From Aquabacter cavernae (GTDB lineage Bacteria; Pseudomonadota; Alphaproteobacteria; Rhizobiales; Xanthobacteraceae): 64,000 bases of DNA. The stretch is taken from the NCBI RefSeq assembly GCF_003993795.1, contig NZ_RWKV01000010.1:1-64000 (forward strand), written 5' to 3'. How positions within the stretch are numbered: position 1 is the first letter of the stretch; each line of letters starts with the position of its first letter. The notes below the pieces were generated by a model. That model was given only the letters and a program-made list of their open reading frames with translations, made no database searches and was not told the DNA's origin. Both the position numbers and the translations under genes were made by a program. Shown in pieces: positions 4,656 to 21,308 of this stretch.

Positions 4656-5903
4656 TCAGGACGCCGTCCCCGCCAGGGTGAGCACCGTGTGCAGCAGCAC
4701 GTTGGCGCCCGCCGCGCAGTCGGATTTTTCGGCGGATTCGGCCTCGTTGTGGCTCACCCCGTCCTTGCAGGGCACGAAGATCATGGCGGTGGGCACGATG
4801 CCCGCCATGGCGAAGGCGTCATGCCCCGCGCCGGAGACCATGGGACGGTTGGGCAAGCCCAGCCCCTCGGCCGCGCCGCGCACGGCCGCGATGACGGAGG
4901 GGGCGAAATGGGTGGGTTCCTTGCGCCAGTTGAGGTCGAGGGCGATCTCCACCTTCCGCCGCGCGGCAATCTCCGTCACCTTCGCCAGAAGTCCCTGGTG
5001 CAGGGCCTCCAGCGTGCCGGCGTCCGGGCTGCGGAATTCGGCGGTGAAGGCGATGGCGCCGGGGATCACGTTGCGCGAGGGATTGGCGATCACGCTCTCG
5101 CCCACCGTGCCCACCGCGTCGGGGCCATGGGCGGTGGCGAGCGCCTCGATGGCCAGCACCACTTCCGACAGGGTGGCGAGGGCGTCGCGGCGCAGCGGCA
5201 TGGGCGTGGAGCCCGCATGGCTCTCGAAGCCCGTGATGCGCCCGTCATACCAGATGATGCCCTGGCCATGCTCCACCACGCCGATGGTCTTGCCCTCGGC
5301 CTCCAGGATCGGCCCCTGCTCGATATGCAGCTCCACGAAGCCGGAGAAGGGCTGCGCGCCCACTTTGGCGGGCCCGCGATAACCGATGGCGTCCAGGGCT
5401 TCGGCGACGCTCACGCCATCGATGTCCGTGCGGGAGAGGATGTCGGCCACCGTGAAGTCGCCCACGAAGGCCAGCGAGCCCATGAGGGCGGGGGCGAAGC
5501 GGGAGCCTTCCTCATTGGTCCAGTTGCACACGCACAAAGGCGTCTCGGTCTCGATGCCCGCATCGTTCAGCGTGCGCACCACTTCGAGCGCGGCCAGCGT
5601 GCCCACGATGCCGTCGAACTTGCCGCCCGTGGGCTGGGTGTCCAGATGGGAGCCGAAGCCCAGCGGCGCCTTGCTCATGTCCTTGCCGGGCCGGATGGCG
5701 AACATGTTGCCCAGTTCGTCCACCTGAACGGTCAGCCCCGCATCCTCGCAGGCGGCGCGGAACCAGTCGCGCACCTTTTTGTCTTCCTGGGACAACGTGA
5801 GGCGGCGCACGCCGCCCTTTTCCGTCGCCCCGAAGCGGGCGGTTTCCATCAGCGTGTCCCAGAAGCGGTCGGCGTCGATGCGAAGGTTCGGCAAGGCGGT
5901 CAT
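4656..5903 (-). CDS. M20-family amidohydrolase (N-carbamoyl-L-amino acid hydrolase/allantoate amidohydrolase type)
   Basis: A 415-residue metallo-amidohydrolase. The metal ligands are visible as GSHLDTQPTGGKFDG (His, Asp), the NEEGSRF Glu pair, the His of ELHIEQGP, and a C-terminal GVSHNEAE His. The dimerisation domain carries GFESHAGSTPMPLRRDA, typical of the hydantoinase/carbamoylase subfamily. It should hydrolyse a ureido or N-carbamoyl group, releasing ammonia and CO2. The start ATG overlaps the oppD stop (ATGA), so it is the last gene of a coupled run: amidase adaptor, amidase, ABC ATPase, carbamoylase. An allantoate or ureidoglycolate substrate cannot be distinguished from an N-carbamoyl amino acid by sequence alone. 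Confidence 0.88.
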   Translation of the reverse strand: MTALPNLRIDADRFWDTLMETARFGATEKGGVRRLTLSQEDKKVRDWFRAACEDAGLTVQVDELGNMFAIRPGKDMSKAPLGFGSHLDTQPTGGKFDGIVGTLAALEVVRTLNDAGIETETPLCVCNWTNEEGSRFAPALMGSLAFVGDFTVADILSRTDIDGVSVAEALDAIGYRGPAKVGAQPFSGFVELHIEQGPILEAEGKTIGVVEHGQGIIWYDGRITGFESHAGSTPMPLRRDALATLSEVVLAIEALATAHGPDAVGTVGESVIANPSRNVIPGAIAFTAEFRSPDAGTLEALHQGLLAKVTEIAARRKVEIALDLNWRKEPTHFAPSVIAAVRGAAEGLGLPNRPMVSGAGHDAFAMAGIVPTAMIFVPCKDGVSHNEAESAEKSDCAAGANVLLHTVLTLAGTAS

Positions 5904-6904
5904 GCGGGCTCCGGGACACTCTGTTCGGCGAGAATGCAGCGCGAGAAGCGGCCCGGCCCCAGGTCGATCCGGGGCGGCAGGGCTTCGCGGCATCGCGGCT
6001 GCACGGACGCGCAGCGGGGGGAAAAGGAGCAGTTCACGGGCGCCACGTCCAGGGAGGGCGGCGTGCCGGGAATGGTCTCCAGCCGCGCGCCGCGCTTGGC
6101 GCCGTGCACGGTGGCGGCCAGCAGGCCGCGCGGATAGGGGTGGATGGGGCGCCGCACGATGTCGGCCAGCGACCCGGTCTCCACGATCTGGCCCGCATAC
6201 ATGACGGCGACGCGGTCGCAGATCTCGATGGCGACGCCGATATCGTGGGTCACGAAGATCACCGACATGCCCATCTCGCGCTGAAGCTCGCGCAGCAGCA
6301 GCAGGATCTGGATCTGCACGGTGGCGTCCAGCGCGGTGGTGGGCTCGTCCGCCAGCAGCACCTTGGGCTTGCAGGCGAGCGCGAGCGCGATCATGGCGCG
6401 CTGGCGCATGCCGCCGGACATTTCGTGCGGATAGGCGGCAAGCCGCCGCTTGGCGGAGGGAATGCGCACGAGGTCCAGCATCTCCAGCGCGCGGGCCATG
6501 CCCTCCGTGCGGGACTTGCCCTCGTGGCGCATGACGCTCTCGGCGATCTGGTCGCCGATCGTATAGACCGGGTCGAGCGCGAGGGCCGGCTCCTGGAAGA
6601 TCATGGAGACCACCTTGCCCCGGAAGTCGGACAAGGCGGTGTCGGAGAGGGCGAGCACATCCTGCCCGGCCACGCTCACGCGGCCGGAAATCTGCGCCTT
6701 CTTGCGGGGCAGCAAGCGCATGAGCGCGCGCATGGTCACGCTCTTGCCGGAGCCGGATTCCCCGAGAAGCCCCAGCACCTCGCCCTGGCCGAGCGAGAGG
6801 GAGACATTGTTCACCGCATGCACCGTGCGTTCGCCGGTGAAGCGGATGGTGAGGTCCTCCACGCTGACGACAGGCGCGGCGGCTGAGGGGAGACGCTCCG
6901 TCAT
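5900..6904 (-). CDS. Peptide-type ABC transporter ATP-binding protein (OppD/DppD)
   Basis: A 334-residue ATPase of the Opp/Dpp importer family, with Walker A GESGSGKS, signature [12 protein letters not shown], Walker [13 protein letters not shown] and the switch His in VTHDIGV. The C-terminal oligopeptide-type extension contains the Cys-rich [12 protein letters not shown] segment typical of OppD/DppD and often linked to an Fe-S site. It acts on the cytoplasmic face, energising import together with OppF. It lies between the amidase and carbamoylase genes with 4-bp overlaps on both sides, more than 2 kb from its OppF partner, rather than adjacent to it as usual. Confidence 0.93.
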
Positions 6905-8346
6905 GGCAGCTCCGGCATCTTGGTGTGGAAGTCGGTTTCGCGCTGGAAGGCGGCGCCCAGCGCGAGCAGGGTCGCTTCGTCGAACGGCTTGCCCATGAGC
7001 TGCAGGCCCACGGGCAGGCCGGTTTTGGTAAAGCCGGCGGGGATGCTCACGGCGGGCAGGCCCAGATAGTTCACCGGCCGCGTGAAGCGGGTGAGCCGCT
7101 GGATCATGGCTTCCGCGTTGGGGGCGCCGCCGAGATCGGTCTCGGCGAGCGTGGGCGCGGGCATGGGCGCGCCGGGGGCGAGCACGGCGTCGAGCCCCTT
7201 GATCGCCTCCAGATGGGCGGCCAGCGCCGGCCCGCGCCAGCGCAGCGCTTCCAGATAGGTGACGGCGGGAAGGACGAAGCCGTTCTCGATGCGCGCGCGC
7301 ACCTGGTCGCCATAGTCCTGCGGCCGCCGTGCCAGCCCTTCAGCATGGAAGGCGGCCGCCTCGGACAGGAGGATCACCGTGGAGGCGGCGGACAGGCGCG
7401 ACTGGTCCGGCAGGTCCACCGGCACAAGGCGGGCCCCGGCGCGGGCGAAGGTGACGATGGCCTCGTCCAGGGCCTCCGCCACGTCGGCGTCGAGATCGTC
7501 CACATAGAAGCGGGTGGGAATGCCGATGACGCGGCCTGCCAAAGGCTGGGCGGTGGCCGCCAGATAGTCCGGCACCGGCCGGTCGGCGCAGGTGGGGTCG
7601 GCCGGGTCCGCCCCCGCCATGAGGCCGGCGAGCAGCGCGCAGTCCTCCACCGTGCGGGCCATGGGCCCCACCGTGTCCAGCGACTGGGAAAGCGGCATGG
7701 CCCCGGCGCGGCTGATGAGGCCCACCGTGGTCTTCAGGCCCGATATGCCGCAGAAATGCGCGGGCAGGCGAATGGAGCCGCCCGTGTCGGAACCCAGGGC
7801 CGCATAGGTGAGGCGCGCGGCCACCGCCGTGCCGGAGCCGGAGGAGGAGCCGCCCGTCACATGGTCCGGGTTCCAGGCGTTGCGGGCGGGGCCATAGTGC
7901 GGATTGTGCCCGGTGGGGCCGAAGGCGAACTCCACCATGTGCAGGGCGCCAAGGCGCACCGTGCCCGCATCCTTCAGCCGCTGGAGGGCGGTGGCGGTGA
8001 GGGGCGCGACCCAATCCCGCCGCACCTTGGAGCCGCAGGTCACCACATGGCCGGCGTCGTAATACATGTCCTTGTGGGCGAGGGGCACGCCGTGCAGCGG
8101 CCCCTTCACGTCGCCCCGCGCCAGGGCGGCATCGGCCGCGTCGGCGGCCTTGAGCGCCGCCTCGGCCTCGATGGAGATGAAGGCGTTGAGGCGCGGCTGG
8201 GCGATCTCGATGCGCGCGAGGCAGGCCAGCGTCGCCTCGCGGGAGGAGAGGCGGCCCGAACGGATGGCGGCGGCGGCCTGCGTGAGGGTGAGGAGCGCGG
8301 GGTCGTCGATCCGCGCGGAGGCGGGCGTTGCGGCATGGGCGTTCAT
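6901..8346 (-). CDS. Amidase-signature hydrolase, AtzE-like
   Basis: A 481-residue amidase with the Ser-Ser-Lys triad visible: Lys in LAHKDMYYDAG, Ser in GGSSSGSGTAVA, and nucleophile Ser in GSDTGGSIRLPA. The family includes GatA, AtzF (allophanate hydrolase) and AtzE (1-carboxybiuret hydrolase). An AtzG-like small protein encoded immediately upstream, overlapping by 4 bp, favours the AtzE-type two-subunit arrangement. It probably releases ammonia from an imported amide or ureido compound in the cytosol. Neighbouring peptide-type transporter genes and a carbamoylase support a nitrogen-salvage role. The exact substrate is not determined. Confidence 0.88.
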   Translation of the reverse strand: MNAHAATPASARIDDPALLTLTQAAAAIRSGRLSSREATLACLARIEIAQPRLNAFISIEAEAALKAADAADAALARGDVKGPLHGVPLAHKDMYYDAGHVVTCGSKVRRDWVAPLTATALQRLKDAGTVRLGALHMVEFAFGPTGHNPHYGPARNAWNPDHVTGGSSSGSGTAVAARLTYAALGSDTGGSIRLPAHFCGISGLKTTVGLISRAGAMPLSQSLDTVGPMARTVEDCALLAGLMAGADPADPTCADRPVPDYLAATAQPLAGRVIGIPTRFYVDDLDADVAEALDEAIVTFARAGARLVPVDLPDQSRLSAASTVILLSEAAAFHAEGLARRPQDYGDQVRARIENGFVLPAVTYLEALRWRGPALAAHLEAIKGLDAVLAPGAPMPAPTLAETDLGGAPNAEAMIQRLTRFTRPVNYLGLPAVSIPAGFTKTGLPVGLQLMGKPFDEATLLALGAAFQRETDFHTKMPELP

Positions 8347-8543
8347 TCGCCGTCTCCCTGCCGCTGCACACGCAGGAAGGTGGCGGGCTCCAGATCCAGC
8401 GGCAGCGTGCCGGAAACCGGCGCGAACGCATCCAGCGCGGGCGCCACGGCGGTGGCGATGCGCAAGGCGGTCTCCGGCGTGAGGTCGAGACCGGCGGTGC
8501 GGGCCGTGACGATGACGGCCTCGGCGGTGAGGGATGAGGTCAT
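8343..8543 (-). CDS. AtzG-like small subunit (DUF4089 type)
   Basis: A 66-residue protein (starts MTSSLTAEAVIVTARTAGLD, later ending in a FLRVQR segment) resembling the small helical DUF4089/AtzG proteins, which bind and stabilise the AtzE amidase. The chosen ATG gives a protein of family-typical length. The open frame continues upstream, but through a repeat-rich intergenic region, so a longer product is unlikely. The stop overlaps the amidase start (ATGA), fitting a stoichiometric two-subunit enzyme. Confidence 0.75.
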   Translation of the reverse strand: MTSSLTAEAVIVTARTAGLDLTPETALRIATAVAPALDAFAPVSGTLPLDLEPATFLRVQRQGDGE

Positions 8544-8912
8544 GGCGTGAGGTTCCGATTCCCGCACCGACGAGGAAAGTGTTGCGATGTGAGGCTCATC
8601 CAGGCCCGGTTGAGCGCGCGCCTCGCCCCCCGTTGGGGTGTTGCGATGTTTGGAGACGGCATGGCCATCGGTGCGGCCTGCCCCCTCTCCCCTCGCGGGA
8701 GAGGGGTGGGGTGAGGGGGCTTTTCCAATTGCGCCGGTGCGTGAATGCCTGCCCCAAGCGGTGCCCAACCCCTCACCCGCCTCGCTGTCGCTCGGCACCC
8801 TCTCCCGCAAGGGGAGAGGGGCGCGAACGGCTGGGGCAGAAAGAACTGGATATCGCAACACCTCCGGGGCGGGAGTGTCGCGCTGTCCGGGCGGCACATG
8901 GTCCCTGGTGCC
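8544..8912. repeat. Repeat-rich intergenic DNA with GTGTTGCGATRT motifs and GC-rich inverted repeats
   Basis: No credible gene. GTGTTGCGATGT occurs at 8579-8590 and 8638-8649 and, inverted as ATATCGCAACAC, at 8850-8861. Between them are GC-rich inverted segments (CCTCTCCCCTCGCGGGAGAGG near 8685-8706, and CACCCTCTCCCGCAAGGGGAGAGG near 8796-8820). These look like REP-type palindromes between oppF and atzG rather than a promoter. Confidence 0.65.
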
Positions 8913-9067
8913 CCCTGTCCCCTCTCCCGCTTGCGGGGGAGGGCGAGGGAGGGGGCCATCAAGCAGGGGGACGATGGCGCATCCAGGACCGAACGCCCTT
9001 TCCCCCTCCCAACCCTCCCCCGCAAGCGGGGGAGGGCTTTTTGAACTGCGGGTGTTCTCATGCGGCC
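8913..9067. repeat. Direct repeat, unit A
   Basis: About 155 bp nearly identical to unit B 234 bp downstream. It begins CCCTGTCCCCTCTCCCGC, contains two GC-rich hairpin arms (CCCGCTTGCGGGGGAGGG and its inverse CCCTCCCCCGCAAGCGGG), and ends TCTCATGCGGCC. Just after it, at 9069-9091, lies GGGATGACCTGATGGCAGGC, a fragment of the 3' coding end of oppF. The duplication therefore carried part of that gene and later lost about 30 bp. Confidence 0.85.
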
Positions 9068-9146
9068 TGGGATGACCTGATGGCAGGCGGCCGGTGTGAC
9101 CGGACAGGCAGCTTCGCCCGGTGCTGCTTCCATATGGCGGGCGTTG

Positions 9147-9301
9147 CCCTGTCCCCTCTCCCGCTTGCGGGGGAGGGCTAGGGAGGGGGCCATCAAGCAG
9201 GGCGACGATGGCGCATCCAGACCCGAACGCCCTTTCCCCCTCCCAACCCTCCCCCGCAAGCGGGAGAGGGCTTTATTGACTGAGGCCGTTCTCATGCGGC
9301 C
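9147..9301. repeat. Direct repeat, unit B (overlaps oppF 3' end)
   Basis: The second copy, offset 234 bp from unit A with only scattered substitutions. Its last 10 bases are the final codons and stop of the oppF gene, so this is probably the original copy. The large inverted repeat inside could act as a strong mRNA 3' structure or terminator for oppF. Confidence 0.85.
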
Positions 9302-10335
9302 TCCAGAACGGGCGCGCGGCTGTGGCCGGAGCCGGGGATGACCTGATGGCAGGCGGCGAGATGGCCGCTTTCGTCCACGGGCGACAGCGCGGGCACCACC
9401 TTGCTGCACACCTCCTCTGCGAACGGGCAGCGGGTGTGGAAGCGGCAGCCGGAGGGCGGGTCGATGGGATTGGGCGGGTCGCCGGAAATGGGCGGGGTCA
9501 TGGTGCGCTCGTCCGGGTCCATGGCGGGCATGGCGGCCAGGAGCGCGCGCGTATAGGGGTGGGCGGGGCCGTCATAGACCGCATCAACCGGCCCCAGCTC
9601 CACCACCTGGCCCAGATACATCACGAGCACCCGGTCTGAGATGTAGCGGACCACGTTGAGGTCGTGGCTGATGAACAGATAGGTGAGGCCGAGGTCGCGC
9701 TTCAGGTCGGTGAGCAGGTTCAGCACCTGCGCCTCCACCGACTTGTCCAGCGCGGACACAGCCTCGTCCAGGATGACGAGGCGCGGCTTCAAGGCGAGGG
9801 CGCGGGCGATGTTCACGCGCTGGCGCTGGCCGCCGGAGACCTCGTGGGGATAGCGGTTGGCGAACACTTCCGGCCGCAGGCCCACCTTGGTGAGCAGGTC
9901 GCGGGCCAGTTCCCGGGCGGCCTTGTCGGAGATGCCGTGCACCTTCGGGCCGAAGGCGATGCTGTCCTCGATGGTGAGGCGGGGATTGAGCGAGGCGTAG
10001 CTGTCCTGGAACACCATCTGCATGCCGCGCCGCAGCTCGCGCAGGGAGAAGGTGGCCCCCACCAATTGGCCGTCGAAGAGGATCTCGCCGGAATTGCGCT
10101 CCATGAGATGCATGAGCAGGCGCGCGGTGGTGGACTTGCCGCACCCGCTCTCGCCAACGATGCCCACGGTCTCGCCCTTGCCCACCTGGAAGGAGACGTC
10201 GTCCACGGCACGGACGATCTTCTTCTCGGCGAACAGGCCGCCGCCGATGGGGAAGTGCTTGGTCAGCCCCTTCACGTCGAGCAAAGGCTGTGCGGCGCCG
10301 CCGATATCGGCGATGGGTTCCAGGGGCGTCGTCAA
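9292..10335 (-). CDS. Peptide-type ABC transporter ATP-binding protein (OppF/DppF)
   Basis: A 347-residue ATPase with Walker A GESGCGKS, Q-loop MVFQDSYASLNPR, signature VSGGQRQRVNIARAL, Walker B LVILDEAVSALD (Ala in place of the common Pro) and switch SHDLNVV. The C-terminal oligopeptide extension (GCRFHTRCPFAEEVC) marks it as OppF/DppF. No ATG is available at the expected place. A TTG overlapping the stop of the upstream permease gene (TTGA) gives MTTPLEPIADIGG and is the likely start. It should work with the two permeases and the distant OppD. Its last codons lie in a duplicated repeat. Confidence 0.92.
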   Translation of the reverse strand: MTTPLEPIADIGGAAQPLLDVKGLTKHFPIGGGLFAEKKIVRAVDDVSFQVGKGETVGIVGESGCGKSTTARLLMHLMERNSGEILFDGQLVGATFSLRELRRGMQMVFQDSYASLNPRLTIEDSIAFGPKVHGISDKAARELARDLLTKVGLRPEVFANRYPHEVSGGQRQRVNIARALALKPRLVILDEAVSALDKSVEAQVLNLLTDLKRDLGLTYLFISHDLNVVRYISDRVLVMYLGQVVELGPVDAVYDGPAHPYTRALLAAMPAMDPDERTMTPPISGDPPNPIDPPSGCRFHTRCPFAEEVCSKVVPALSPVDESGHLAACHQVIPGSGHSRAPVLEAA

Positions 10336-11219
10336 TTGCGGATATCCATGGCGCTGCGCAGCCCGTCGCTGAGCATGTTGAAGCAGATGGAGACGGCGAA
10401 GATCATCACGCCCGGCAGGGCCGCGACGCCGGGATTGACGTAGATGGCGGTGCGCAGCGTGTTGAGCATGAGGCCCCATTCGGGCTCCGGCGGCTTGGTG
10501 CCGAGGCCGAGGAAGGACAGGCCCGCCGCCAGGATCATGGAGACCGAGATGAGGCCGGTCGCATAGACGAAGATGGGGCCGAGCACGTTGCCCAGCATGT
10601 GCACGCGCATGATGGTGAGCGGCCCCGCTCCCGAGGCGCGGGCGGCGTCCACGAAGTCGAGATTGCGCACGCTGGTGGTGACACTCTCTGCCACGCGGGT
10701 GATCTGCGGGATGAAGACCACGGTCAGCGAGACGATGGAATTCACGATGCCCGCGCCCAGCACGCCGGAAATGGCGATGGCCAGCAGCACGGAAGGGAAG
10801 GCGTAGAACACATCCACCGTGCGCATGATGGCGGTGTTCACCTTGCCCCCCGCATAGCCCGCCACGAGGCCGAGCGAGGTGCCGATGCAGAAGGCGAGGA
10901 TGACCGGCAAAATGCCGATGAGCAGCGACAGGCGCCCGCCATAGACGAGCCGCGAGAGCATGTCGCGACCCAGCTCGTCCGTGCCCAGGGGATAGCCCGG
11001 CGTGCCGATGGGGCGCAGGCGGCGGATCATGGAGCCCTGGTAGGGATCCGCCAGATGCAGGAAGGGCGCGAAGATGGCGGCGAGGACGATGAGGAGCAGG
11101 ATGAACCCGCACACCACCGCCACCTTGTCGCGCAGGAGGCGGCGGCCCACCGTGGCCCAATAGCCGCGGGCCTTGTGGACGGGGGCGGCCTGGAGGGCGG
11201 CGTCGCTGGCTGCGGTCAT
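10332..11219 (-). CDS. Peptide-type ABC transporter permease (OppC/DppC)
   Basis: A 295-residue inner-membrane permease. An N-terminal cytosolic tail is followed by a first TM helix (VVCGFILLLIVLAAIF), the periplasmic LGTDELGRDMLSR motif of the OppC/DppC group, and about five further helices. The EAA loop, DAARASGAGPLTIM, contacts the ATPase. The ATG was chosen for length and lies 4 bp after the oppB stop; a longer frame upstream overlaps oppB. It pairs with OppB to form the translocation pore. Confidence 0.93.
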   Translation of the reverse strand: MTAASDAALQAAPVHKARGYWATVGRRLLRDKVAVVCGFILLLIVLAAIFAPFLHLADPYQGSMIRRLRPIGTPGYPLGTDELGRDMLSRLVYGGRLSLLIGILPVILAFCIGTSLGLVAGYAGGKVNTAIMRTVDVFYAFPSVLLAIAISGVLGAGIVNSIVSLTVVFIPQITRVAESVTTSVRNLDFVDAARASGAGPLTIMRVHMLGNVLGPIFVYATGLISVSMILAAGLSFLGLGTKPPEPEWGLMLNTLRTAIYVNPGVAALPGVMIFAVSICFNMLSDGLRSAMDIRN

Positions 11220-11223
11220 GGCC

Positions 11224-12168
11224 TCAGCTCCGCTTGATGCGCGGATCGATGGCCGCCTGGGCCACGTCCACGATGAGGTTGAGGAACACGAAGAACAGCG
11301 CCAGAACAAGAATAGTACCCTGGAGCAAAGGCAGGTCTCGCTGAAAGATCGCGGAGTTCAGGAGGAACCCGGTACCGGGCCAGGAGAAAACCGTCTCGAT
11401 GAGGATGGATCCGCCCAGCAAATAGCCCAGCTGCAGGCCCATGACGGCGATGGCGGTGGGGGCGGCGTTCTTGACGATGTGCCGGAACACCTGCCGCTCC
11501 TTCAAACCCTTGGAACGCAAGGCTTCCACGAAGTCCTGGGAGAGGATGTCGCCGGTGAGCGCCCGCACCGTGCGGGTGACGATGCCCATGGGGATCACCG
11601 ACATGGTGACGGCGGGCAGGATGAGGAAGCGGATATGCTCCCAGTCCCACGCCCATCCCCCCGGACCCGCCCCGACTGCCGGTAACCAATTGAGGGTAAC
11701 GGAGAAAATGATCACCAGCACCATGCCGAGCCAGTAGTGCGGCACGGACACGCCGGTGACCGCGATGCCGGTGGCGACCTTGTCCACCCAGGTGTTGCGG
11801 AAGTATCCGGCGATCAGGCCGAAGAAGACCCCGAGCACGAAGCCGATGATGGAGGCGGTAACGGCCAGGATGAAGGTGTTTCCCACCGCCCGCATCACCT
11901 CGGTGAAGACCGGGCGGCCGGTGGCGATGGACGTGCCGAGGTTTCCGTGCAGCGCGTTCCAGAACCAGATCGCGAACTGCACCGGCAATGGCCGGTCGAA
12001 ACCATAGGCAGCCCGCAATTGCGCGGCCAGTTCCTGGGAAGCATCGGGCGGGAGCACCGCCACCAGGGGATCACCGGGCGTCATGTGCACCAGCAGGAAG
12101 CACACGAGCGCCACCGAGATCACGATGGGGATCACATAGATGATGCGGCGGAGCACATAGAGCAGCAC
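11224..12168 (-). CDS. Peptide-type ABC transporter permease (OppB/DppB)
   Basis: A 314-residue permease with six predicted TM segments. It starts MLLYVLRRIIYVIPIVISVA, followed by the family motif MTPGDP and a large periplasmic loop. The EAA loop sequence EALRSKGLKERQVFRHIVKNA contacts the ATPase, and the C-terminus ends in AAIDPRIKRS, typical of DppB. It is the first membrane gene after the solute-binding protein and forms a heterodimer with OppC. Confidence 0.94.
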   Translation of the reverse strand: MLLYVLRRIIYVIPIVISVALVCFLLVHMTPGDPLVAVLPPDASQELAAQLRAAYGFDRPLPVQFAIWFWNALHGNLGTSIATGRPVFTEVMRAVGNTFILAVTASIIGFVLGVFFGLIAGYFRNTWVDKVATGIAVTGVSVPHYWLGMVLVIIFSVTLNWLPAVGAGPGGWAWDWEHIRFLILPAVTMSVIPMGIVTRTVRALTGDILSQDFVEALRSKGLKERQVFRHIVKNAAPTAIAVMGLQLGYLLGGSILIETVFSWPGTGFLLNSAIFQRDLPLLQGTILVLALFFVFLNLIVDVAQAAIDPRIKRS

Positions 12169-13936: not shown

Positions 13937-13951
13937 GCAACCGGCGTGCCA
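13937..13951 (-). promoter_or_regulatory. Sigma-54 (-24/-12) promoter of the peptide-type transporter operon
   Basis: The minus strand reads TGGCAC, 5 nt, TTGCT, a full match to the RpoN consensus TGGCAC-N5-TTGCW. It lies 38 bp upstream of the binding-protein start codon. It implies control by nitrogen status or another enhancer-binding protein. Confidence 0.85.
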
Positions 13952-14052
13952 TGTGCGCCGGTTGAGCGGGCGCGGGGCTCGCCGGGCATGACCTAAGGGG
14001 AATGGAGCGATGAAATGTTGCCGTTTCGTCGGTGAAATGTCGGGCATGCTCA

Positions 14053-14066
14053 ATTTGTATGCAAAT
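14053..14066. promoter_or_regulatory. Palindrome upstream of sigma-54 promoter
   Basis: ATTTGTATGCAAAT (arms ATTTG/CAAAT) is centred about 110 bp upstream of the -24 GG of the transporter promoter, a usual distance for an upstream activating site. It also lies 95-108 bp before the racemase-like gene. It resembles AATTGTGCACAATT near 15.72 kb, with shared pattern TTGT-N3-CAA. It could be an enhancer site or the operator of the nearby GntR/FCD regulator. The rest of 13900-14160 shows nothing else clear. Confidence 0.5.
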
Positions 14067-14160
14067 GATTTGGGCCGCCGCTCCTGCAAGCGCTTTCCTT
14101 GCCGGGGCCGGGCATGCTTCCCTTGCCGTCCGCGCCCCGCCGCAGGAGGTTCGACGCGCC

Positions 14161-14856
14161 GTGAAGATCTTGCTGCTGAATGGAAACACTACAGAGAGCG
14201 TCACCGCGCGCATGCTGTCCGCCGTCGCGAAGCGGTGCCCGCAGGATGTGCAACTTGTCGGCGCGACCGCCCCGTTCGGCGCGCCCTACGTCTCCAGCCG
14301 CGCGGCCGCAGCGGTGGCGGCGCACGGCGCGCTGGAAGCCGTGCGGGCGGCGGTGGCGGTGGAGGCGGCGGCCGGGCGGGCGCCCTTTGATGCCTGCTAT
14401 TACGCCTGTTTCGGCGAGCCGGGCATCGAGGCGATCCGGGCGGAGACCGGGCTTCCCGTGGCGGGAATGGCGGAAGGCGCGGTGCTCACCGCGCTGCAAC
14501 TGGGCGAGCGTTTCGCCATCCTCACCATGGGGGCCGCGTGGCCGGGCATGATCCGCGAGCTTTTGCGCAGGCTGGCCCTGCAGGAGCGGTGCGCGGGCAT
14601 CGGCGTGGTGGAGGGGGACGGGCTCGCTTTGTCCGGCGATCATGAAGCCGGGCGGCCGGTGGTGGCGGCGGCGGCGCGGGATCTTCTGGCGCGCACGCCC
14701 GCCGATGTGCTCATCGTCGCGGGCGCAGCCCTGGCGGGCTATGCGGGGGAGATCAGGGGCGAGGTGCCGGTCCCGGCTCTGGATTCCCTGGCGGCGGGTT
14801 TCGAGCAGACATTGGCGCTGGCGCGGCTTTCCGCAGGTTCGCGCGCTTCGGCCTGA
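14161..14856 (+). CDS. Asp/Glu/hydantoin racemase-family protein 1, one catalytic Cys missing
   Basis: A 231-residue protein of the Asp/Glu/hydantoin racemase superfamily. It opens VKILLLNGNTTESVT, equivalent to the family NPNT substrate loop. The first catalytic cysteine is present in YYACFGEPG, but the second, normally in a GCAGM context, is replaced in LIVAGAALAGYA (Ala). Two-base racemisation therefore looks impossible as drawn. One-cysteine members exist, such as arylmalonate decarboxylase, which keeps the other Cys. GTG was chosen as start because CAGGAGG lies 10 nt upstream; an earlier ATG in frame has no such signal. It is divergent from the transporter operon and convergent with the GntR gene. 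Confidence 0.82.
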   Translation: MKILLLNGNTTESVTARMLSAVAKRCPQDVQLVGATAPFGAPYVSSRAAAAVAAHGALEAVRAAVAVEAAAGRAPFDACYYACFGEPGIEAIRAETGLPVAGMAEGAVLTALQLGERFAILTMGAAWPGMIRELLRRLALQERCAGIGVVEGDGLALSGDHEAGRPVVAAAARDLLARTPADVLIVAGAALAGYAGEIRGEVPVPALDSLAAGFEQTLALARLSAGSRASA

Positions 14857-14880
14857 GGGCGTACTCTGCCCATCTGGAGA

Positions 14881-15624
14881 TCAAGCCTGCGCTTCCGCTT
14901 TCATTTGGGCTTTCCGCCGTGTCCGGGCGGGAGGCGAGGGCGGCTCCATGAATTCGGCGATGACGTCTTCCAATGGCGGCCCGGCATCCACGCAGGCGAG
15001 GGGGCGCAGGCGCGTCTCGATGAGCGCCAGATGGGCGGACATGGCCTTGCCCGCCCGCGCCCGCTCGCCGGAGGCCAGCGCCCGGAAGATGGTGCGATGC
15101 TCGGCGCAGCCGCATTGGGCGCCCGCATTGTTCTCGTAGAAAGCCACCAGCATGGTGGTGCGCCCCACCAGTTCACGGGCCTGCTGCACGATGACGGGAT
15201 TCCCCGTCATGGCCGCCAGCAGGAAATGGAACTCGGCGGAGAGGCGCAGCCAGGTGCGGCGGTCGCCGGTCTTCAGGGCCTCGCTCTCGCGGTCCACATG
15301 GGCGCGCAGTGTCTCCACCTGGTCGGGGGAGAGGGTGTCCGCCAGATGGGCCGCGATGCCGCCCTCCAGGATGCGGCGGGCCTCGAACACCACATGAACC
15401 TCGGACGGGTCCGGAGCGAGCGTGAAGGCGCCCCGGTTCTTCACCACCTCGATCAGCCGCTCATGTCCCAGGCGGTGCAGCACCTTGCGGATACGCTCCC
15501 GGCTGACGCCGAAAATATCGGCGAGCCGGTGCTCGCCCAGCTTCGTTCCGCCCGGCAGGCGCCCGGCCAGAAGCATGCGGGAGAGGGTGGCGTGGATCTG
15601 GTCTTCATCCATGGGCAGGCTCAT
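14881..15624 (-). CDS. GntR-family regulator, FadR/FCD type
   Basis: A 247-residue regulator. The N-terminal winged helix carries GTKLGEHRLADIFGVSRERI and KVLHRLGHERLIEVVKNRGAF. The C-terminal all-helical FCD domain (residues about 80-220) shows the metal/ligand pattern in EARRILEGG, FHFLLAAMTGN, and EHRTIFRAL followed by MSAHL. FCD domains usually bind carboxylic acids. It sits between the two transporter operons and is divergent from the Pot-type operon. Palindromes of the form TTGT-N3-CAA in both flanking promoter regions are candidate operators, which would make it a common regulator. That is inferred from position. Confidence 0.9.
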   Translation of the reverse strand: MSLPMDEDQIHATLSRMLLAGRLPGGTKLGEHRLADIFGVSRERIRKVLHRLGHERLIEVVKNRGAFTLAPDPSEVHVVFEARRILEGGIAAHLADTLSPDQVETLRAHVDRESEALKTGDRRTWLRLSAEFHFLLAAMTGNPVIVQQARELVGRTTMLVAFYENNAGAQCGCAEHRTIFRALASGERARAGKAMSAHLALIETRLRPLACVDAGPPLEDVIAEFMEPPSPPARTRRKAQMKAEAQA

Positions 15625-15700
15625 GCGCGGTCACGCCCGCGTCGTGGTGCAACCATCCCCCATGCGGGGCGGGTCCGTCAAAGGGGGTGACGATCGTGCA

Positions 15701-15729
15701 TAAAATTGGATCAATTGTGCACAATTTTA
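15701..15729. promoter_or_regulatory. Nested palindromes between gntR and the Pot-type operon
   Basis: The inner AATTGTGCACAATT (15713-15726) is a perfect 14-bp palindrome. Around it TAAAATTG (15701-15708) and CAATTTTA (15722-15729) form a second inverted pair. The inner centre is about 115 bp upstream of the sigma-54 -24 GG. It may be a GntR/FCD operator or an enhancer-binding site. A further perfect palindrome, ATGAAATTTCAT, lies at 15797-15808, 25 bp before the -24 element. Confidence 0.6.
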
Positions 15730-15832
15730 GCGGACTGGTTTCAAGCTGGAATTTCGACGCGAGGGTGTGGCTGTTTCAGTAGTCATATGATTTTTAATGA
15801 AATTTCATGAATTTTCGATGTTGGAGCGGCCT

Positions 15833-15847
15833 TGGCACGCTCGTTGC
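15833..15847 (+). promoter_or_regulatory. Sigma-54 (-24/-12) promoter of the Pot-type transporter operon
   Basis: TGGCAC, 5 nt, TTGC, matching the RpoN consensus at every conserved position except the final W. It lies 50 bp upstream of the binding-protein start. Together with the identical element before the peptide-type operon it suggests a shared nitrogen-responsive regulon. Confidence 0.85.
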
Positions 15848-15897: not shown

Positions 15898-16947
15898 ATG
15901 TCCTTCTCGAACTCGGGCGTCCCCTCGCGGCGCACCATCCTCAAGGCCGGCATCGCGCTCACCGGCCTTGTCGCGGCGCCTTCGGTCCTGCGCGCCCAGA
16001 CCAAGGAACTGGTGGTGGGCGGCGCCGCCAGTCACAAGCCCTGGGTGGAGAGCATCGTCGCTCCGGCCTTCGAGAAGAAATACAAGTGCAAGATCATCTT
16101 CGAGGGCACCAAGTCGCTGGTGAACCTGGAGAAGATGCAGAAGAACAAGGGCTCGCAATATCTCTCGGTGGTCCAGATGGACGACCCGGTGATGATCCTC
16201 GCCGTGCGCGAGGGCCTGCTGGAGCCGCTCACCACCGCAGCCGTGCCGAACCTCGCCGACCTCGTTCCCGGCGCCGTGCACATGGACGGCGCATGGGCCA
16301 ACTATCTCCAGCCCTGGCTCGGCATCGCCTATGCCAATTCCATGAAGGCCCCGCCGACCTCCTGGGCGGATCTGTTCGACCCCAAATATAAGGGCCGGAT
16401 CATCATCCCCTCGCCGCAGAATACCGAGGGGCTGCCGCTGATCTTCGCCGCCGCCGCTTTGGCCAAGGGGGCGCCCCTCGCGGCCGGGCAGAAGGACGTG
16501 GATGCGGGCTTCGCCAAGCTCGCGACGCTCAAGCCCAACCTGCTCACCATCTACACCCAGATGCCCCAGGCCTATAATCTGCTGGAGCAGGGCGAGGCGC
16601 TGATGATCGGCCCGGCCATGTCCTCCTATGCCAGCGAGCGCAAGGCGGCAGGCGCGCCCATCAGCCTCGCGGCACCGAAGGAAGGCGTGTTCGCCATGCC
16701 CTCCGGCATCGCGGTGGTGAAGGGCGCCCCGCAGGCGGAACTGGCCTTCGCCTATGTGAACGAGCTGTTGAGCGCCCCGCTTCAGGCCGAACTGGTGGGC
16801 CCCACCAATTCGCTGGGCGCCAACAAGGCGACGCCCAAGCCCGCCGGCCTGCCCGCGGACCTCAAGGTGGTGCAGATCGACTGGGCGGACGTGGCGGCCG
16901 AGCGGACCAAATGGGTGTCCCGCTGGGACCGCGACATGGCGCTGTGA
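15898..16947 (+). CDS. Extracellular solute-binding protein, polyamine/spermidine (PotD) type
   Basis: A 349-residue family 1/PotD-like binding protein. The N-terminus MSFSNSGVPSRRTILKAG followed by a hydrophobic stretch is a twin-arginine-type signal, cleaved after a LRA motif. The mature chain has the PotD/AfuA-like fold segments YANSMKAPPTSWADLFDPKY and AMPSGIAVVKGAPQ. It begins the operon ending at the second racemase-like gene. AGAGG lies 9 nt before the chosen ATG. The ligand is unlikely to be read from sequence; the linked PuuE-like and racemase-like genes point to a ureide, hydantoin or amide rather than a true polyamine. Confidence 0.9.
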   Translation: MSFSNSGVPSRRTILKAGIALTGLVAAPSVLRAQTKELVVGGAASHKPWVESIVAPAFEKKYKCKIIFEGTKSLVNLEKMQKNKGSQYLSVVQMDDPVMILAVREGLLEPLTTAAVPNLADLVPGAVHMDGAWANYLQPWLGIAYANSMKAPPTSWADLFDPKYKGRIIIPSPQNTEGLPLIFAAAALAKGAPLAAGQKDVDAGFAKLATLKPNLLTIYTQMPQAYNLLEQGEALMIGPAMSSYASERKAAGAPISLAAPKEGVFAMPSGIAVVKGAPQAELAFAYVNELLSAPLQAELVGPTNSLGANKATPKPAGLPADLKVVQIDWADVAAERTKWVSRWDRDMAL

Positions 16948-16950
16948 GCC

Positions 16951-18066
16951 ATGGGCGAGGCACCCACCGGCGCGGCCGGCTTCCTGAACGTCTCGGCGGC
17001 GGAGAAGACCTTCGGCGCCGCGCGGGTCCTCGACGGAGTGGATCTCAGCGTGGCGCGGGGCGAGTTCATCTCGCTCCTCGGTCCCTCCGGCTGCGGGAAG
17101 ACCACGCTTCTGCGCATCGTCGCGGGGCTCATGCGGCCCGACCGGGGCCGGGTGGTGCTGGACGGGCAGGACATCACCACCCGCCCGCCCCACAAGAGGG
17201 ACGTGGGCGTGGTGTTCCAGAACTACGCCCTGTTCCCCCATCTCGACGTGCGCGCCAATGTGGCCTTCGGCCTGAAGGCGCGCGGCGCCCCCGCCGACAC
17301 CATCGCCTCCGCCGTGTCGCGCCAGCTGGAGCTGGTGCGCATGAGCGCCTTGGCGGATCGCTCCATCAAGGCGCTCTCCGGCGGGCAGCAGCAGCGCGTG
17401 GCGGTGGCGCGGGCGCTTGCCGTGGAGCCGAAGCTCCTGTTGCTGGACGAGCCCTTCTCGGCGCTGGATCGCAAGCTGCGCGAGGCCATGCAGGTGGATT
17501 TGAAGCGCATCCTGCGCGACGTGGGCACCACCGCCATTTTCGTCACCCACGACCAGGATGAGGCGCTCGCCATGTCCGATCGCATCGCGGTCATGTCCGG
17601 CGGGCGCATCGAGCAATTGGGCACGCCGGCGGAGATCTATGACCGGCCCGCCACCGCCTTCGCGCTGGGTTTCGTCGGCCTCTCCACCCGCCTGCCGGGC
17701 CGGGTGACGCAGGCGGACGGGGATGAGGTGGTGGTCTCCACCGCTTTCGGCCCGGTGCGCGGGCTCGGCCGCTTCCTGCCGGGCAGTCCCGTTCTCGTGG
17801 GTGTGCGGCCCGAGCGCATGGCGCTGGACGGGCGCGGAGAGAATGTGGTGCGCGCGACCCTCGTCGATGCGGTGTTCAAGGGCGCGCGCGTTCAGCTCCA
17901 TTTCCACGCCCCCGAGGGCGCGGAGGTGCAGGTGGAGGCGCCGAGCCTTCCGGCCGGCGTCGCGCCGGGAGGGGAAATGACCCTCTCCTTCGCCGCGGCG
18001 GACACCCGCGTCTATCCCCTGCCGGGCGACATGGAGGCCGCCTTGGCGGCGCAGGTGGCGGCATGA
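16951..18066 (+). CDS. ABC transporter ATP-binding protein, PotA type
   Basis: A 371-residue ATPase with Walker A GPSGCGKTT, Q-loop VFQNYALFPH, signature LSGGQQQRVAVARAL, Walker B LLLLDEPFSALD and switch THDQDEA. A C-terminal TOBE regulatory domain (residues about 240-360; VLVGVRPERMAL) is typical of PotA/FbpC proteins. It starts 3 bp after the binding-protein stop and overlaps the next permease gene (ATGA). It energises uptake by the two downstream permeases. Confidence 0.95.
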   Translation: MGEAPTGAAGFLNVSAAEKTFGAARVLDGVDLSVARGEFISLLGPSGCGKTTLLRIVAGLMRPDRGRVVLDGQDITTRPPHKRDVGVVFQNYALFPHLDVRANVAFGLKARGAPADTIASAVSRQLELVRMSALADRSIKALSGGQQQRVAVARALAVEPKLLLLDEPFSALDRKLREAMQVDLKRILRDVGTTAIFVTHDQDEALAMSDRIAVMSGGRIEQLGTPAEIYDRPATAFALGFVGLSTRLPGRVTQADGDEVVVSTAFGPVRGLGRFLPGSPVLVGVRPERMALDGRGENVVRATLVDAVFKGARVQLHFHAPEGAEVQVEAPSLPAGVAPGGEMTLSFAAADTRVYPLPGDMEAALAAQVAA

Positions 18067-18899
18067 CGCGCTTCGCTCGCCTCGATCCCGTGGCGCTTCT
18101 GGCGCTGCCCGCCATTCTCTATCTGGCGGTCGTCTATGGCGTGCCGCTCGCGGGCCTGCTGGCCCGCAGCTTTGTGGTGGACGGGGCCTTTTCGCTGTCC
18201 GCCTTCGTGGCTTTCTTCTCGGACGGCTTCAGCTGGACGGTGATCGGCAACACCATCCGCATCGCCGCCGGTGTCACTCTGGTGTGCCTGCTCATCGGCT
18301 ATCCCACGGCGCTCGCTTTGGCGCGAGCCAAGGGGGCGGCGCAGGCGCTGATCCTGGTGGCCATCATCCTGCCGCTCTCGGTGGGCGTGGTGGTGAAGGC
18401 CTTCGCCTGGCAGATCGTGCTGCGGCGGGACGGCGTCATCTCCCAGGCCCTCATCTTCCTCGGCATCTGGGACGAGCCCCAGCGCCTGCTCTTCACGGAG
18501 GCGGGCCTCGTTCTGGGCGCGGCCAACGTGTTCGTGCCCTTCATGATCCTGCCCATCTATTCGGTGCTGAAGCTCATCGATCCGCGCCTGACGGAGGCCG
18601 CCGCCACGCTGGGTGCCTCTCCGCTCCAGCGCTTCTTCACGGTGGCGCTGCCCCTCACTTTGCCGGGCCTCGTCACGGGCGTCGCGTTCGTCTTCTCCAT
18701 GGCCACGTCCATGTATGTGGTGCCCAGCCTGCTCATCGGCGACCGCTTCCAGACGCTGGCGACCCTCACCGGCCGCTCCTTCCTGTTCATGCGCAATGAG
18801 CAACTGGGCTCCACCACGGCGGTGGTGCTGCTGGTCCTTTCGGTGGCGGTGGTGGTGGCAAGCGCCGCGCTCTCGCGCCGGTTCGGAGGCGAGACATGA
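18063..18899 (+). CDS. ABC transporter permease, PotB type
   Basis: A 278-residue inner-membrane permease with about six TM helices. The EAA loop, EAAATLGASPLQRFFTVALP, docks onto the ATPase. A first hydrophobic segment (LLALPAILYLAVVYGVPLAG) and the FMILPIYSVL region match PotB/family 2 permeases. Four-base overlaps with genes on both sides indicate tight translational coupling. Confidence 0.94.
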   Translation: MTRFARLDPVALLALPAILYLAVVYGVPLAGLLARSFVVDGAFSLSAFVAFFSDGFSWTVIGNTIRIAAGVTLVCLLIGYPTALALARAKGAAQALILVAIILPLSVGVVVKAFAWQIVLRRDGVISQALIFLGIWDEPQRLLFTEAGLVLGAANVFVPFMILPIYSVLKLIDPRLTEAAATLGASPLQRFFTVALPLTLPGLVTGVAFVFSMATSMYVVPSLLIGDRFQTLATLTGRSFLFMRNEQLGSTTAVVLLVLSVAVVVASAALSRRFGGET

Positions 18900-19696
18900 C
18901 GCTGATCGAGCGCTTCGCCTCCGTTCTCGTCTGGACGCTCGCCGCCTTCACCGTGGTGTTCCTGCTCACGCCCTTGGCGGTGACGGTGGCGGTGTCGTTC
19001 GGCTCCAGCGCGGTCTTCACGCTCCCGGCGCCGTCCTTCTCGCTGCGCTGGTACGAGGCCATGGGCCGCTCGCGGGATTTGTGGCCGGCGGTGGCCACCT
19101 CGCTTCAGCTGGCGGTGGTCTCCACTCTCATCGCGCTGGTGCTGGGCACGCTGGCGGCCATCGGCCTGCTGCGCGGGCGCTTTCCGGGGCGGGGCGCGGC
19201 GGTGACTTTCCTGGTGTCGCCGCTCATGCTGCCCGGCCTCGTTCTGGGCATCGCCATGCTGGAGGCGTTCCGGGGGGCGGGGCTGCGCTCGGTGTGGGCG
19301 AGCCTCATCCTCGCCCATGTGGTGATCACGCTGCCTTATGTGGTGCGCACCGTCTATGCGTCCCTCAGCCTGTTCGACTTCACGCTGATCGATGCCGCGC
19401 GCATCCTCGGCCTGTCCTATCCCAAAGCGGTGGTGAAGGTGATGGTGCCGTCTTTGGCGCCTGCCTTCGTCACCTCCGGCATGTTCGCCTTCCTGGCGTC
19501 CATGGACAATTACCCCATCTCCATCTTCTTCACGAACGCCTGGACCAAGACCTTGCCCATCCAGATGCTGCAATATGTGGAGGAGAGCCCCGATCCCATG
19601 ATCGCCGCCGTCTCCTCCCTGCTCATCCTCCTCGCCATGCTGGTGCTGCTCGTGGGCGACCGGCTGGTGGGCCTGCGCCGGATGGCGGACCTGTGA
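18896..19696 (+). CDS. ABC transporter permease, PotC type
   Basis: A 266-residue permease with six predicted TM segments. It starts MTLIERFASVLVWTLAAFTV and carries the EAA-type loop DAARILGLSYPKAVVKVMVP. FLASMDNYPISIFF near residue 200 is a typical PotC feature. It forms the pore with the PotB-type partner. The stop overlaps the next start by one base (TGATG). Confidence 0.94.
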   Translation: MTLIERFASVLVWTLAAFTVVFLLTPLAVTVAVSFGSSAVFTLPAPSFSLRWYEAMGRSRDLWPAVATSLQLAVVSTLIALVLGTLAAIGLLRGRFPGRGAAVTFLVSPLMLPGLVLGIAMLEAFRGAGLRSVWASLILAHVVITLPYVVRTVYASLSLFDFTLIDAARILGLSYPKAVVKVMVPSLAPAFVTSGMFAFLASMDNYPISIFFTNAWTKTLPIQMLQYVEESPDPMIAAVSSLLILLAMLVLLVGDRLVGLRRMADL

Positions 19697-20640
19697 TGCC
19701 CGCCTCCCTTTCGAGCGATCGGGATTTCCTGGGCTATGGCGGCAAGCCCCCCAATGTGCGCTGGCCGGGCGGGGCGCGGCTGGCCGTGTCCCTGGTGGTG
19801 AATGTGGAGGAGGGGGCGGAACTGTCCCTCGGCCAGGGCGATGAGCGCAACGAGGCTGTCTATGAGGTGCGCGAGGAGGTAGTGGGCGCCCGTGACCTGT
19901 GCATGGAATCCCACTTCGAATACGGCCCCCGCGCAGGCTGGCCACGGGTGCGGGCGCTTCTCGTAAAGTACGGGGTCGAGGCGACGCTGAACGCCAATGG
20001 CCGCGCTTTGGCGCACACGCCCTGGATCGCCCGCGAGGCGGTGGCGGACGGGCACGAAGTGGCCGCCCATGGCTGGCGCTGGGAGACCCATGCCCATATG
20101 GCCGAGGCCGAGGAGCGCACGGCCATCGCCCGCGCGGTGGAGGCCATCACCACGGCGGCGGGCCGCGCGCCACGCGGCTGGCATACGCGCTCGGCCACCT
20201 CGCCCAACACCCGCCGCCTGCTGCTGGAGCAAGGCGGGTTCCTCTATGATTCCAACGCCTATAATGACGATCTGCCCTATCTGGTGCGCGAGGCCGGGCA
20301 CGATTGTCTCGTCCTGCCTTATGCCTTCGACACCAACGACATGCGCTTCCAGCCGGGCGGTGGGTTCGTGTTCGCGGAGGATTTCTCGCGCTATTGCATC
20401 GAGGCGTTCGACCGCCTCTATGAGGAGGGCGCGCAGGCGCCGCGCATGCTGTCCGTGGGGCTGCATCTACGCCTCATCGGGCGGCCCGGCCGCATCGGCG
20501 GGCTGGAGCGTTTCCTGCGCCACGCCACCTCCCGGCCGGGCGTCTGGTTCGCCCGCCGCGACGCCATCGCGCTCCACTGGCTGGAGGCGGTGGGACGGGG
20601 CGACCTGATCCGCCGCGCGCTCGGCCCGGATGCGGCATGA
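19696..20640 (+). CDS. Polysaccharide deacetylase-family hydrolase, PuuE allantoinase-like
   Basis: A 314-residue NodB-fold protein. SLVVNVEEGAE corresponds to the first motif; HEVAAHGWRWE carries the His and the HGWRWE signature of PuuE-type allantoinases and related cyclic-amide hydrolases; WHTRSATSPNTRRLL, YDSNAYNDDLPY and FDTNDMRF follow. The usual second NodB motif His-x3-His is altered, as in PuuE. It probably opens a cyclic ureide or amide ring in the cytosol. The ATG overlaps the permease stop, and the gene is followed with overlap by the second racemase-like gene, so transport, ring opening and stereochemistry are linked. Other cyclic substrates cannot be excluded. Confidence 0.85.
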   Translation: MPASLSSDRDFLGYGGKPPNVRWPGGARLAVSLVVNVEEGAELSLGQGDERNEAVYEVREEVVGARDLCMESHFEYGPRAGWPRVRALLVKYGVEATLNANGRALAHTPWIAREAVADGHEVAAHGWRWETHAHMAEAEERTAIARAVEAITTAAGRAPRGWHTRSATSPNTRRLLLEQGGFLYDSNAYNDDLPYLVREAGHDCLVLPYAFDTNDMRFQPGGGFVFAEDFSRYCIEAFDRLYEEGAQAPRMLSVGLHLRLIGRPGRIGGLERFLRHATSRPGVWFARRDAIALHWLEAVGRGDLIRRALGPDAA

Positions 20641-21308
20641 GGCGGCTGGTCCTCCTCAATCCCAACACCAATGCGGCGACCACCGAAAGCATGTGCGCCA
20701 TCGCCCGGCAGGCGGTGCCCGGCGTCGGGGTGGACGGGCTGACCGCCCCGCGCGGGGTCTCGATGATCACGACGCCCGGCGCCCTGGTCGAGGCGGGGGA
20801 CGTGGTGGCCGGGATGGCGCTGGAGATGTCGTCCTCGCCGCCGGACGGCCTCATCATCGGCGCCTTCGGTGATCCGGGACTGGAGCGGGCGGCGCGGGTG
20901 CTGGCCTGTCCCGTCACGGGGCTTGGCGAAGCCGCCATGCGGGAGGCGGGGGCAGGGGGGCGCAGCTTTGCCGTGGTGACGGTAACGCCGGACCTCGTCG
21001 CCTCCATCACCCACATGGCGCACCGGCTGGGCCTTGCCGCACAGTTTCGGGGCGTGGTGCTGACGGACGGCGATCTTGGCCCCTTGATGGGGAATGCAGA
21101 TGCCCTGCTGGCCGCATTGCAGGCGGCGTGCGAACGGGCGCTGGCGCCGGGCGGCTTGGCGGCGCTGGTGATCGGCGGCGGGCCGCTCGGGGCGGCGGCG
21201 GATGCGCTGGCGGCGCGCTTCCGTGTGCCGCTCATCAATCCGGTGGCCGCTGCGGCGCGCCTCGCCGTTGCGCGCATGGCAAGCCTTGGCGCGACCTGTC
21301 ATTCCTAG
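20637..21308 (+). CDS. Asp/Glu/hydantoin racemase-family protein 2, both catalytic Cys missing
   Basis: A 223-residue homologue of the hydantoin racemase family, beginning [20 protein letters not shown] with the diagnostic NPNT loop. The first catalytic Cys position reads [10 protein letters not shown] (Ala instead of Cys before FGDPG), and the second reads [11 protein letters not shown] (Gly instead of Cys). Cysteine-based racemisation is therefore not supported. The fold and the phosphate- or carboxylate-binding loops are kept, so it may be a binding, isomerase or decarboxylase-like enzyme. It is the last gene of the sigma-54 operon, overlapping the PuuE-like gene by 4 bp. The protein ends in ATCHS. 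Confidence 0.85.

Follow-up and report, generated by a model that had tools for sequence, protein, structure and literature searches.

Two neighbouring transporter operons of Aquabacter cavernae with conserved sigma-54 promoters, likely NtrC-type control and a candidate GntR/FCD operator

The first 64,000 nucleotides of contig NZ_RWKV01000010.1 of Aquabacter cavernae (assembly GCF_003993795.1), referred to below as the window, carry two neighbouring operons. One is built around an Opp-type and the other around a Pot-type transporter, and a gene for a GntR/FCD regulator lies divergent from the latter. Each operon is preceded by a sigma-54 element and, further upstream, by a palindrome. The observations described below suggest that both operons are transcribed from sigma-54 promoters, most likely with NtrC as the activator, and that the two palindromes are different elements, that of pot being a strongly supported candidate operator of the GntR/FCD protein. 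The features, in window coordinates, are the following.

13937 to 13951, minus strand: sigma-54 -24/-12 element of the opp operon, TGGCACGCCGGTTGC, an exact TGGCAC-N5-TTGC 37 bp before the oppA start
15833 to 15847, plus strand: sigma-54 -24/-12 element of the pot operon, TGGCACGCTCGTTGC, an exact TGGCAC-N5-TTGC 50 bp before the potD start
15713 to 15726, no strand assigned: GntR/FCD candidate operator AATTGTGCACAATT (the pot palindrome), whose core TGTGCACA tracks an adjacent gntR
14053 to 14066, no strand assigned: opp palindrome ATTTG-N4-CAAAT, found in 10 of 26 opp loci where 0.37 would be expected
14047 to 14063, minus strand: NtrC-type candidate enhancer site of opp, TGCATACAAATTGAGCA, top-scoring among 63,984 window positions under the P-II matrix described below
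14060 to 14076, no strand assigned: possible second, weaker NtrC-type site of opp, fourth in the window with the same matrix
15697 to 15713, plus strand: weak NtrC-like site of pot that could instead be a second, weak half-operator of GntR, 21 bp away from the main operator; third in rank
12226 to 13899, minus strand: oppA-type solute-binding protein (PF00496)
9292 to 12168, minus strand: oppB, oppC and oppF, the last named by family search, oppB and oppC by orthology and position
6901 to 8346, minus strand: AtzE-type amidase (PF01425; AtzE models below curated cut-off)
5900 to 6904, minus strand: oppD, by family search
4656 to 5903, minus strand: carbamoylase / allantoate amidohydrolase (NF006769, 634.5 bits, cut-off 452)
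14161 to 14856, plus strand: Asp/Glu/hydantoin racemase 1, by family search
14881 to 15624, minus strand: GntR/FCD regulator gene, divergent from pot (PF00392, 45.9 bits, and PF07729, 86.1 bits, both above cut-off)
15898 to 16947, plus strand: potD-type solute-binding protein, by family search
16951 to 19696, plus strand: Pot-type ATPase and two permeases, by family search
19693 to 20640, plus strand: PuuE-like protein (TIGR03212, 309.9 bits, below the cut-off of 424.6)
20637 to 21308, plus strand: Asp/Glu/hydantoin racemase 2, by family search

Across orthologs, gntR is divergent from potD-potA-potB-potC-puuE, with a racemase gene mostly present, and the opp operon runs oppA-oppB-oppC-oppF-amidase-oppD, to which a carbamoylase gene and a divergent racemase gene are often added. 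Orthologs of potD were taken from 397 genomes of the order, drawn from a larger group (17 genomes with a match at 1e-70, its own included), and those of oppA from 149 genomes, also drawn from a larger group (61 genomes with a match at 1e-60; 31 loci were analysed); GntR orthologs were searched for in 149 genomes of the family. A scan of genome contigs yielded three loci, and one of these, in an archaeon, matches at 29%.

The exact TGGCAC-N5-TTGC is found at two places in the window and at no third. Counting in the window or the genome was uninformative as evidence for either the sigma-54 element or the palindrome: the 4.5-Mb genome holds 13 exact sigma-54 matches and 10 of the reversed pattern, and when up to one mismatch is allowed the window holds 3 against 5.6 expected. 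The motifs exceed chance because they are conserved in other genomes, and not because of their counts. The core GGC[ACG][CT]-N5-TTGC lies no more than 150 bp before the start in 24 of 26 potD loci and in 26 of 31 oppA loci, and at the other spacings from N2 to N8 it is absent, save for one opp locus at N8. Dinucleotide (Euler) shuffles give an expectation of 0.25 in 27 pot rows and 0.32 in 31 opp rows, the 27 pot rows being 26 distinct loci (L045 and L124 are apparently the same record). On the opposite strand the loose core occurs in 3 of 27 pot and 1 of 31 opp rows, and the reversed pattern in 1 and 0. Judged by this conservation, the opp and pot promoters both are sigma-54 promoters; the genome has one copy of rpoN. 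The potD locus of genome G450 has TGGTACGGGCATTGC in place of the core, and in 5 of the 8 pot loci that are without gntR the element starts with CGG, not TGG. Opp analyses beyond the counts of the core and its spacing were made on the 26 loci with a sigma-54 core, the other five being left out, and the tests of the remaining motifs (NtrC-type, TGC-N11-GCA, ATTTG-N4-CAAAT and P-II) used first-order resampling.

The opp palindrome (ATTTGTATGCAAAT) is centred 108.5 bp upstream of the first T of its -24 element, and the pot palindrome (AATTGTGCACAATT) 113.5 bp upstream of its own. A reading made earlier from the sequence alone (the sequence-only reading) had placed TGGCAC-N5-TTGC before both transporter operons and the palindromes at about 110 and 115 bp, and these descriptions are correct; its gene calls (Opp- and Pot-type transporters, amidase, carbamoylase, PuuE-like protein and GntR/FCD regulator) agree in outline with the family searches. 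The form TTGT-N3-CAA has three matches at two places in the 64 kb, against 1.7 expected. A longer form, AWTTGTNNNCAAWT, is exact only at the two sites in 4.5 Mb, the pattern itself having been derived from both of them.

At pot, TGTGCACA is found in the 300 bp before potD in all 18 loci with an adjacent gntR and in none of the 8 without, where "without" means that no gntR lies within the fetched surroundings of potD. All 8 retain the sigma-54 element; the palindrome thus follows the regulator, not the promoter. The best GntR matches elsewhere in the genomes of these 8 loci are 37% (G493) and 34% (G462), the others being weaker. The regulator carries a GntR DNA-binding domain and an FCD domain, both above cut-off, and the pot palindrome, TTGT-GC-ACAA, agrees with the operator rule of the FadR subfamily (TKGT/ACMA, GT-N2-3-AC; in the available part of PMC4494728, GT-N2-AC holds in some groups such as HpxS). 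In a close group of seven loci with a sigma-54 element the operator is centred 99.5 to 116.5 bp upstream of the -24 T. In a distant group of ten loci, whose GntR is about 40% identical, a further copy is centred at -6.5 (8 of 10) or -16.5 (2 of 10) from the -24 T, positions that touch the polymerase site and differ by one helical turn. Further upstream, 8 of these 10 loci have a tandem pair of operators 21-23 bp apart, and G051 and G479 have a single exact upstream copy each. The assignment of the pot palindrome as the operator of the GntR/FCD protein is strongly supported by this covariation.

The opp palindrome behaves differently. ATTTG-N4-CAAAT, with up to one mismatch, is present in 10 of 26 opp loci (0.37 expected) and in none of 26 pot loci; at opp the spacings N5 and N6 give 0, and N2 (3 of 26) and N3 (2 of 26) lie slightly above expectation. 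It does not follow the FadR-subfamily rule, as it reads TTGT-AT-GCAA, with GC replacing AC in one half, and in the orthologous palindromes TTGAATACAA, TTGAAGACAA and TTGACGACAA one half likewise breaks the rule. In the window, G051 and G098 it overlaps the NtrC-type site, and in G006, G041, G113 and G129 it stands apart from it. In G041, G113 and G129 the searches found no close homolog of the GntR of the window (best matches E 2e-14 to 5e-17) or of a GntR paralog encoded elsewhere in the genome (best matches 1e-15 to 5e-16); neither protein is therefore needed for the palindrome to persist. The paralog (C15:157401-158063) was considered as the binding protein and was rejected on this ground. 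Pointing to it are its own sites, TTGTATACGA, which resemble the opp palindrome, and a relative near opp in G095 and G122; G006 does have the paralog (93%). Some other, unlinked regulator may bind the opp palindrome; alternatively, its presence in this genus may in part be incidental to that of the NtrC site.

At the locus of this paralog (L057 9408-10511; C15:157401-158510 in the genome of the window) the gene is divergent from a transporter-like gene that is accompanied by a sigma-54 element of its own, an NtrC-like site and two TTGTATACGA-type palindromes. This makes a third operon built in the same way, and it is conserved in relatives.

The motif TGC-N11-GCA occurs upstream of opp in 13 of 26 loci (2.2 expected) and upstream of pot in 10 of 26 (2.5 expected), and the control spacings N9, N10 and N12 at opp give 1, 3 and 3 loci, near expectation. 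It performs better than the E. coli-type TGCAC-N7-GTGCA, which was tried as the NtrC pattern and is only mildly enriched (at least 8 of 10 letters in 12 of 26 pot loci against 5.1 expected, and in 10 of 26 opp loci against 4.1). The NifA-type TGT-N10-ACA is not enriched, with 0 and 1 of 26 loci. Similar TGC-N11-GCA sites precede two other sigma-54 elements of the genome, before transporter-like genes, and all eight promoters of operons beside a GntR paralog have the motif with up to one mismatch, a count made without a shuffle control.

The P-II genes glnB and glnK are classical NtrC targets. Their promoters in this and 15 other genomes (32 of 42 P-II matches) were scored with an earlier matrix that contains none of them; the mean best score was 12.0 bits, compared with 2.3 for shuffles, and 18 of 32 reached at least 12. 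Since TGC-N11-GCA also marks the glnB/glnK promoters, it looks like an NtrC site. The Pseudomonas NtrC consensus GCACCA-N3-TGGTGC, as given in the available part of PMC12977541, is in the same frame. A P-II matrix was then built of 19 sites, chosen by means of the earlier matrix, with near-duplicates and weak ones left out. With this matrix the opp site at 14047-14063 scores 18.6 bits (shuffle p 0.005) and is also the best with the earlier matrix. The second-ranked site of the window lies inside gntR. The pot site at 15697-15713, which abuts the operator, is a weak match of 11.7 bits (p 0.03), or 8.6 bits (p 0.05) with the earlier matrix. Sites at p <=0.05 with the P-II matrix are present in 17 of 26 opp loci and in 7 of the 8 pot loci without gntR. 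The NtrC protein of the genome scores 721.4 bits with TIGR01818 (equivalog cut-off 558.6) and has a GSFTGA loop; the GAFTGA loop is missing from some alphaproteobacterial NtrC proteins, according to the part of PMC10274813 available.

By combining these observations, it is possible to propose how the two operons are controlled. The sigma-54 RNA polymerase would transcribe both, as the conservation of the elements suggests. The motif shared with the glnB/glnK promoters points to NtrC as the most likely activator. Its TGC-N11-GCA sites would be centred some 104 bp upstream of the -24 T at opp and some 128 bp at pot, and the case is strong at opp and weak at pot. The opp operon would thus be under NtrC control. 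At pot a second, substrate-specific layer would be added by the divergent GntR/FCD protein, which would bind TTGTGCACAA, probably autoregulate its own gene and repress pot until a metabolite of the pathway releases it. In the window the operator lies at enhancer distance and could block NtrC, and in the distant orthologs the copy abutting -24 would block the polymerase. NtrC/sigma-54 nitrogen control of both operons with a local GntR repressor at pot is the best model and probably the correct one. A narrower proposal, that GntR gates the pot promoter at the enhancer so that both nitrogen starvation and substrate are needed, is put forward with considerable doubt; in 6 of the 10 distant loci the distal operator is overlapped by a 17-bp NtrC-like match at p <=0.05. 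The blocking of NtrC at the enhancer is among the most speculative steps, as is a loop that, in loci with a third operator, might form between the operator next to the enhancer and the one abutting -24.

Several observations weigh against the NtrC/sigma-54 model. The genomes compared are related and thus are not independent samples, and the two matrices are not fully independent either, because the P-II sites were chosen by means of the earlier one. No site at p <=0.05 with the P-II matrix is present in 9 of 26 opp loci, and such a site is present in no more than 4 of the 8 close and 6 of the 10 distant pot loci linked to gntR. At pot the NtrC-like site scores weakly and falls on what may be a second GntR half-operator, and the operator's own sequence makes up half of each match in the distant pot group. 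The potD locus of G359 is without a sigma-54 element although the genome has rpoN, and gntR and the palindrome are kept there. There is no sigma-54 core at opp of G100, G037, G071, G003 and G010 (5 of 31 loci).

The weakness of the pot site leaves room for a reading in which pot is activated by some other enhancer-binding protein and 15697-15713 is merely a weak second GntR operator. Its 21-bp distance from the main operator matches the tandem operators of the distant group, and the genome encodes five further strong sigma-54 activator domains. However, good NtrC-type sites lie in 7 of the 8 pot loci that have no gntR, and for none of the six activators was a relative found near the tested pot and opp loci, except at L117, which is an opp locus without a sigma-54 core. 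This reading is considered unlikely. The GntR/FCD protein itself might activate the sigma-54 promoter or serve as its architectural helper, given that in the close group an operator 99.5-116.5 bp upstream of -24 cannot cover the promoter. The -24-abutting copy of the distant group is, however, in a repressor position, and GntR/FCD proteins are not known to have an AAA+ domain with which to open sigma-54 complexes, making a role other than repression improbable.

According to the sequence-only reading, the two palindromes are one element, bound by one regulator, either an enhancer-binding protein or the resident GntR, and define one regulon. They look alike, they are at nearly equal distances from -24, and nowhere else in the genome does the 14-base pattern that they share occur exactly. 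Nevertheless, TGTGCACA tracks gntR at pot, and ATTTG-N4-CAAAT is confined to opp, where it is kept in three genomes without a close homolog of GntR or its paralog and where one half is without the AC of the FadR-subfamily rule (as stated in the part of PMC4494728 at hand). A single shared element is thus very improbable. The question that the earlier reading had posed about the binding protein has a different answer at each promoter: the pot palindrome fits the resident GntR, and the opp palindrome overlaps an NtrC-type site. What stands of its interpretation is sigma-54 at both promoters together with likely nitrogen control, through NtrC-type sites common to the glnB/glnK promoters; the shared palindrome and the single regulon find no support.

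The NtrC/sigma-54 model with a local GntR repressor resembles control at the Pseudomonas hut genes, a nitrogen-scavenging operon on whose sigma-54 promoter NtrC and a local repressor of the GntR family converge. In the available parts of the sources, NtrC, CbrB and HutC crowd one region at hut promoters (PMC8871633), and the HutC-protected region overlaps the sigma-54 site at PhutU (PMC12977541), much as the operator of the distant orthologs abuts -24. The differences are that HutC belongs to another subfamily with a TGTA-N2-TACA operator, compared with FCD and TTGT-N2-ACAA here; that the window operator, centred 113.5 bp upstream of -24, does not cover the sigma-54 element; and that CbrB, a part of hut control, was not seen to be involved. 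The Rhizobiales NtrC regulon has a core of glnBK/amtB and taxon-specific C-N hydrolases and ABC transporters, to which the gene content of the two operons is similar, although the pot and opp operons are unmentioned in the part of that paper available (PMC5343134).

Klebsiella hpxSAB comprises the GntR protein HpxS, an allantoin racemase and a PuuE-like allantoinase. The pot operon likewise brings together a racemase, a PuuE-like enzyme and a regulator of the GntR/FadR type, and HpxS sites are of the GT-N2-AC form (PMC4494728, in part). This is a likeness by gene content, and the enzymes are only relatives of allantoin/hydantoin racemases and PuuE. The pot operon differs in having a Pot-type ABC transporter and a PuuE-like protein below the equivalog cut-off. 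An AtzE-type amidase beside ABC transporter and hydrolase genes also recalls the AtzE/AtzG clusters, which the available part of PMC6219798 links, with ABC transporters, to nitrogenous compounds; the window amidase, however, is below the AtzE cut-offs, and the small open reading frame at 8343-8540, considered as AtzG, was rejected, having no family match that would identify it as such and no Pfam support. No paper on these two operons was found in a literature search that most subscription journals lay outside the reach of. Every ingredient is known already.

Some further observations concern sigma-54 elements. Four of the 13 exact matches of the genome lie within 11 kb of one contig, by nifH- and nifA-like genes (apart from NtrC, the names given to nif, transporter and activator genes are readings of the sequences, with no family search). 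The loss of the element at potD of G359 (L128) is a possible change of promoter type. In L110, L112, L114, L115 and L119 a second oppA paralog, about 50% identical, is divergent from oppA, and at least in L112 it has its own sigma-54 element, so that two sigma-54 promoters stand back to back. At L060 (C16:312083-313671 in the genome of the window) a sigma-54 element precedes a binding-protein-like gene beside a sigma-54 activator gene, with repeated CGTAA-type motifs in between, perhaps a dedicated activator and its sites. Within the opp operon, between oppF and the amidase gene, window positions 8677-9357 hold GC-rich inverted repeats and a direct repeat of 156 nt, the copies of which are 93% identical and 234 bp apart.

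The enzymes give some indication of the substrate. The carbamoylase exceeds the cut-offs of both the hydantoinase/carbamoylase model TIGR01879 (439.6, cut-off 204) and the allantoate amidohydrolase subfamily model NF006769 (634.5, cut-off 452). The nearest solved structures of the racemases are allantoin and hydantoin racemases, and those of the PuuE-like protein are PuuE allantoinase and its relatives, although the PuuE-like protein misses the TIGR03212 equivalog cut-off and the amidase those of AtzE. As far as such relationships indicate function, the operons likely serve, when nitrogen is limiting, to scavenge a nitrogen compound of the cyclic or ureido type that resembles allantoin or a hydantoin.

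Palindromes that are similar and equally placed can thus be unrelated elements, which becomes visible only when genomes are compared. The comparison also provides an NtrC motif that can be used in this bacterial family, and it supplies two uncharacterised conserved operons with a scheme of control that can be tested and with a likely condition for growth.

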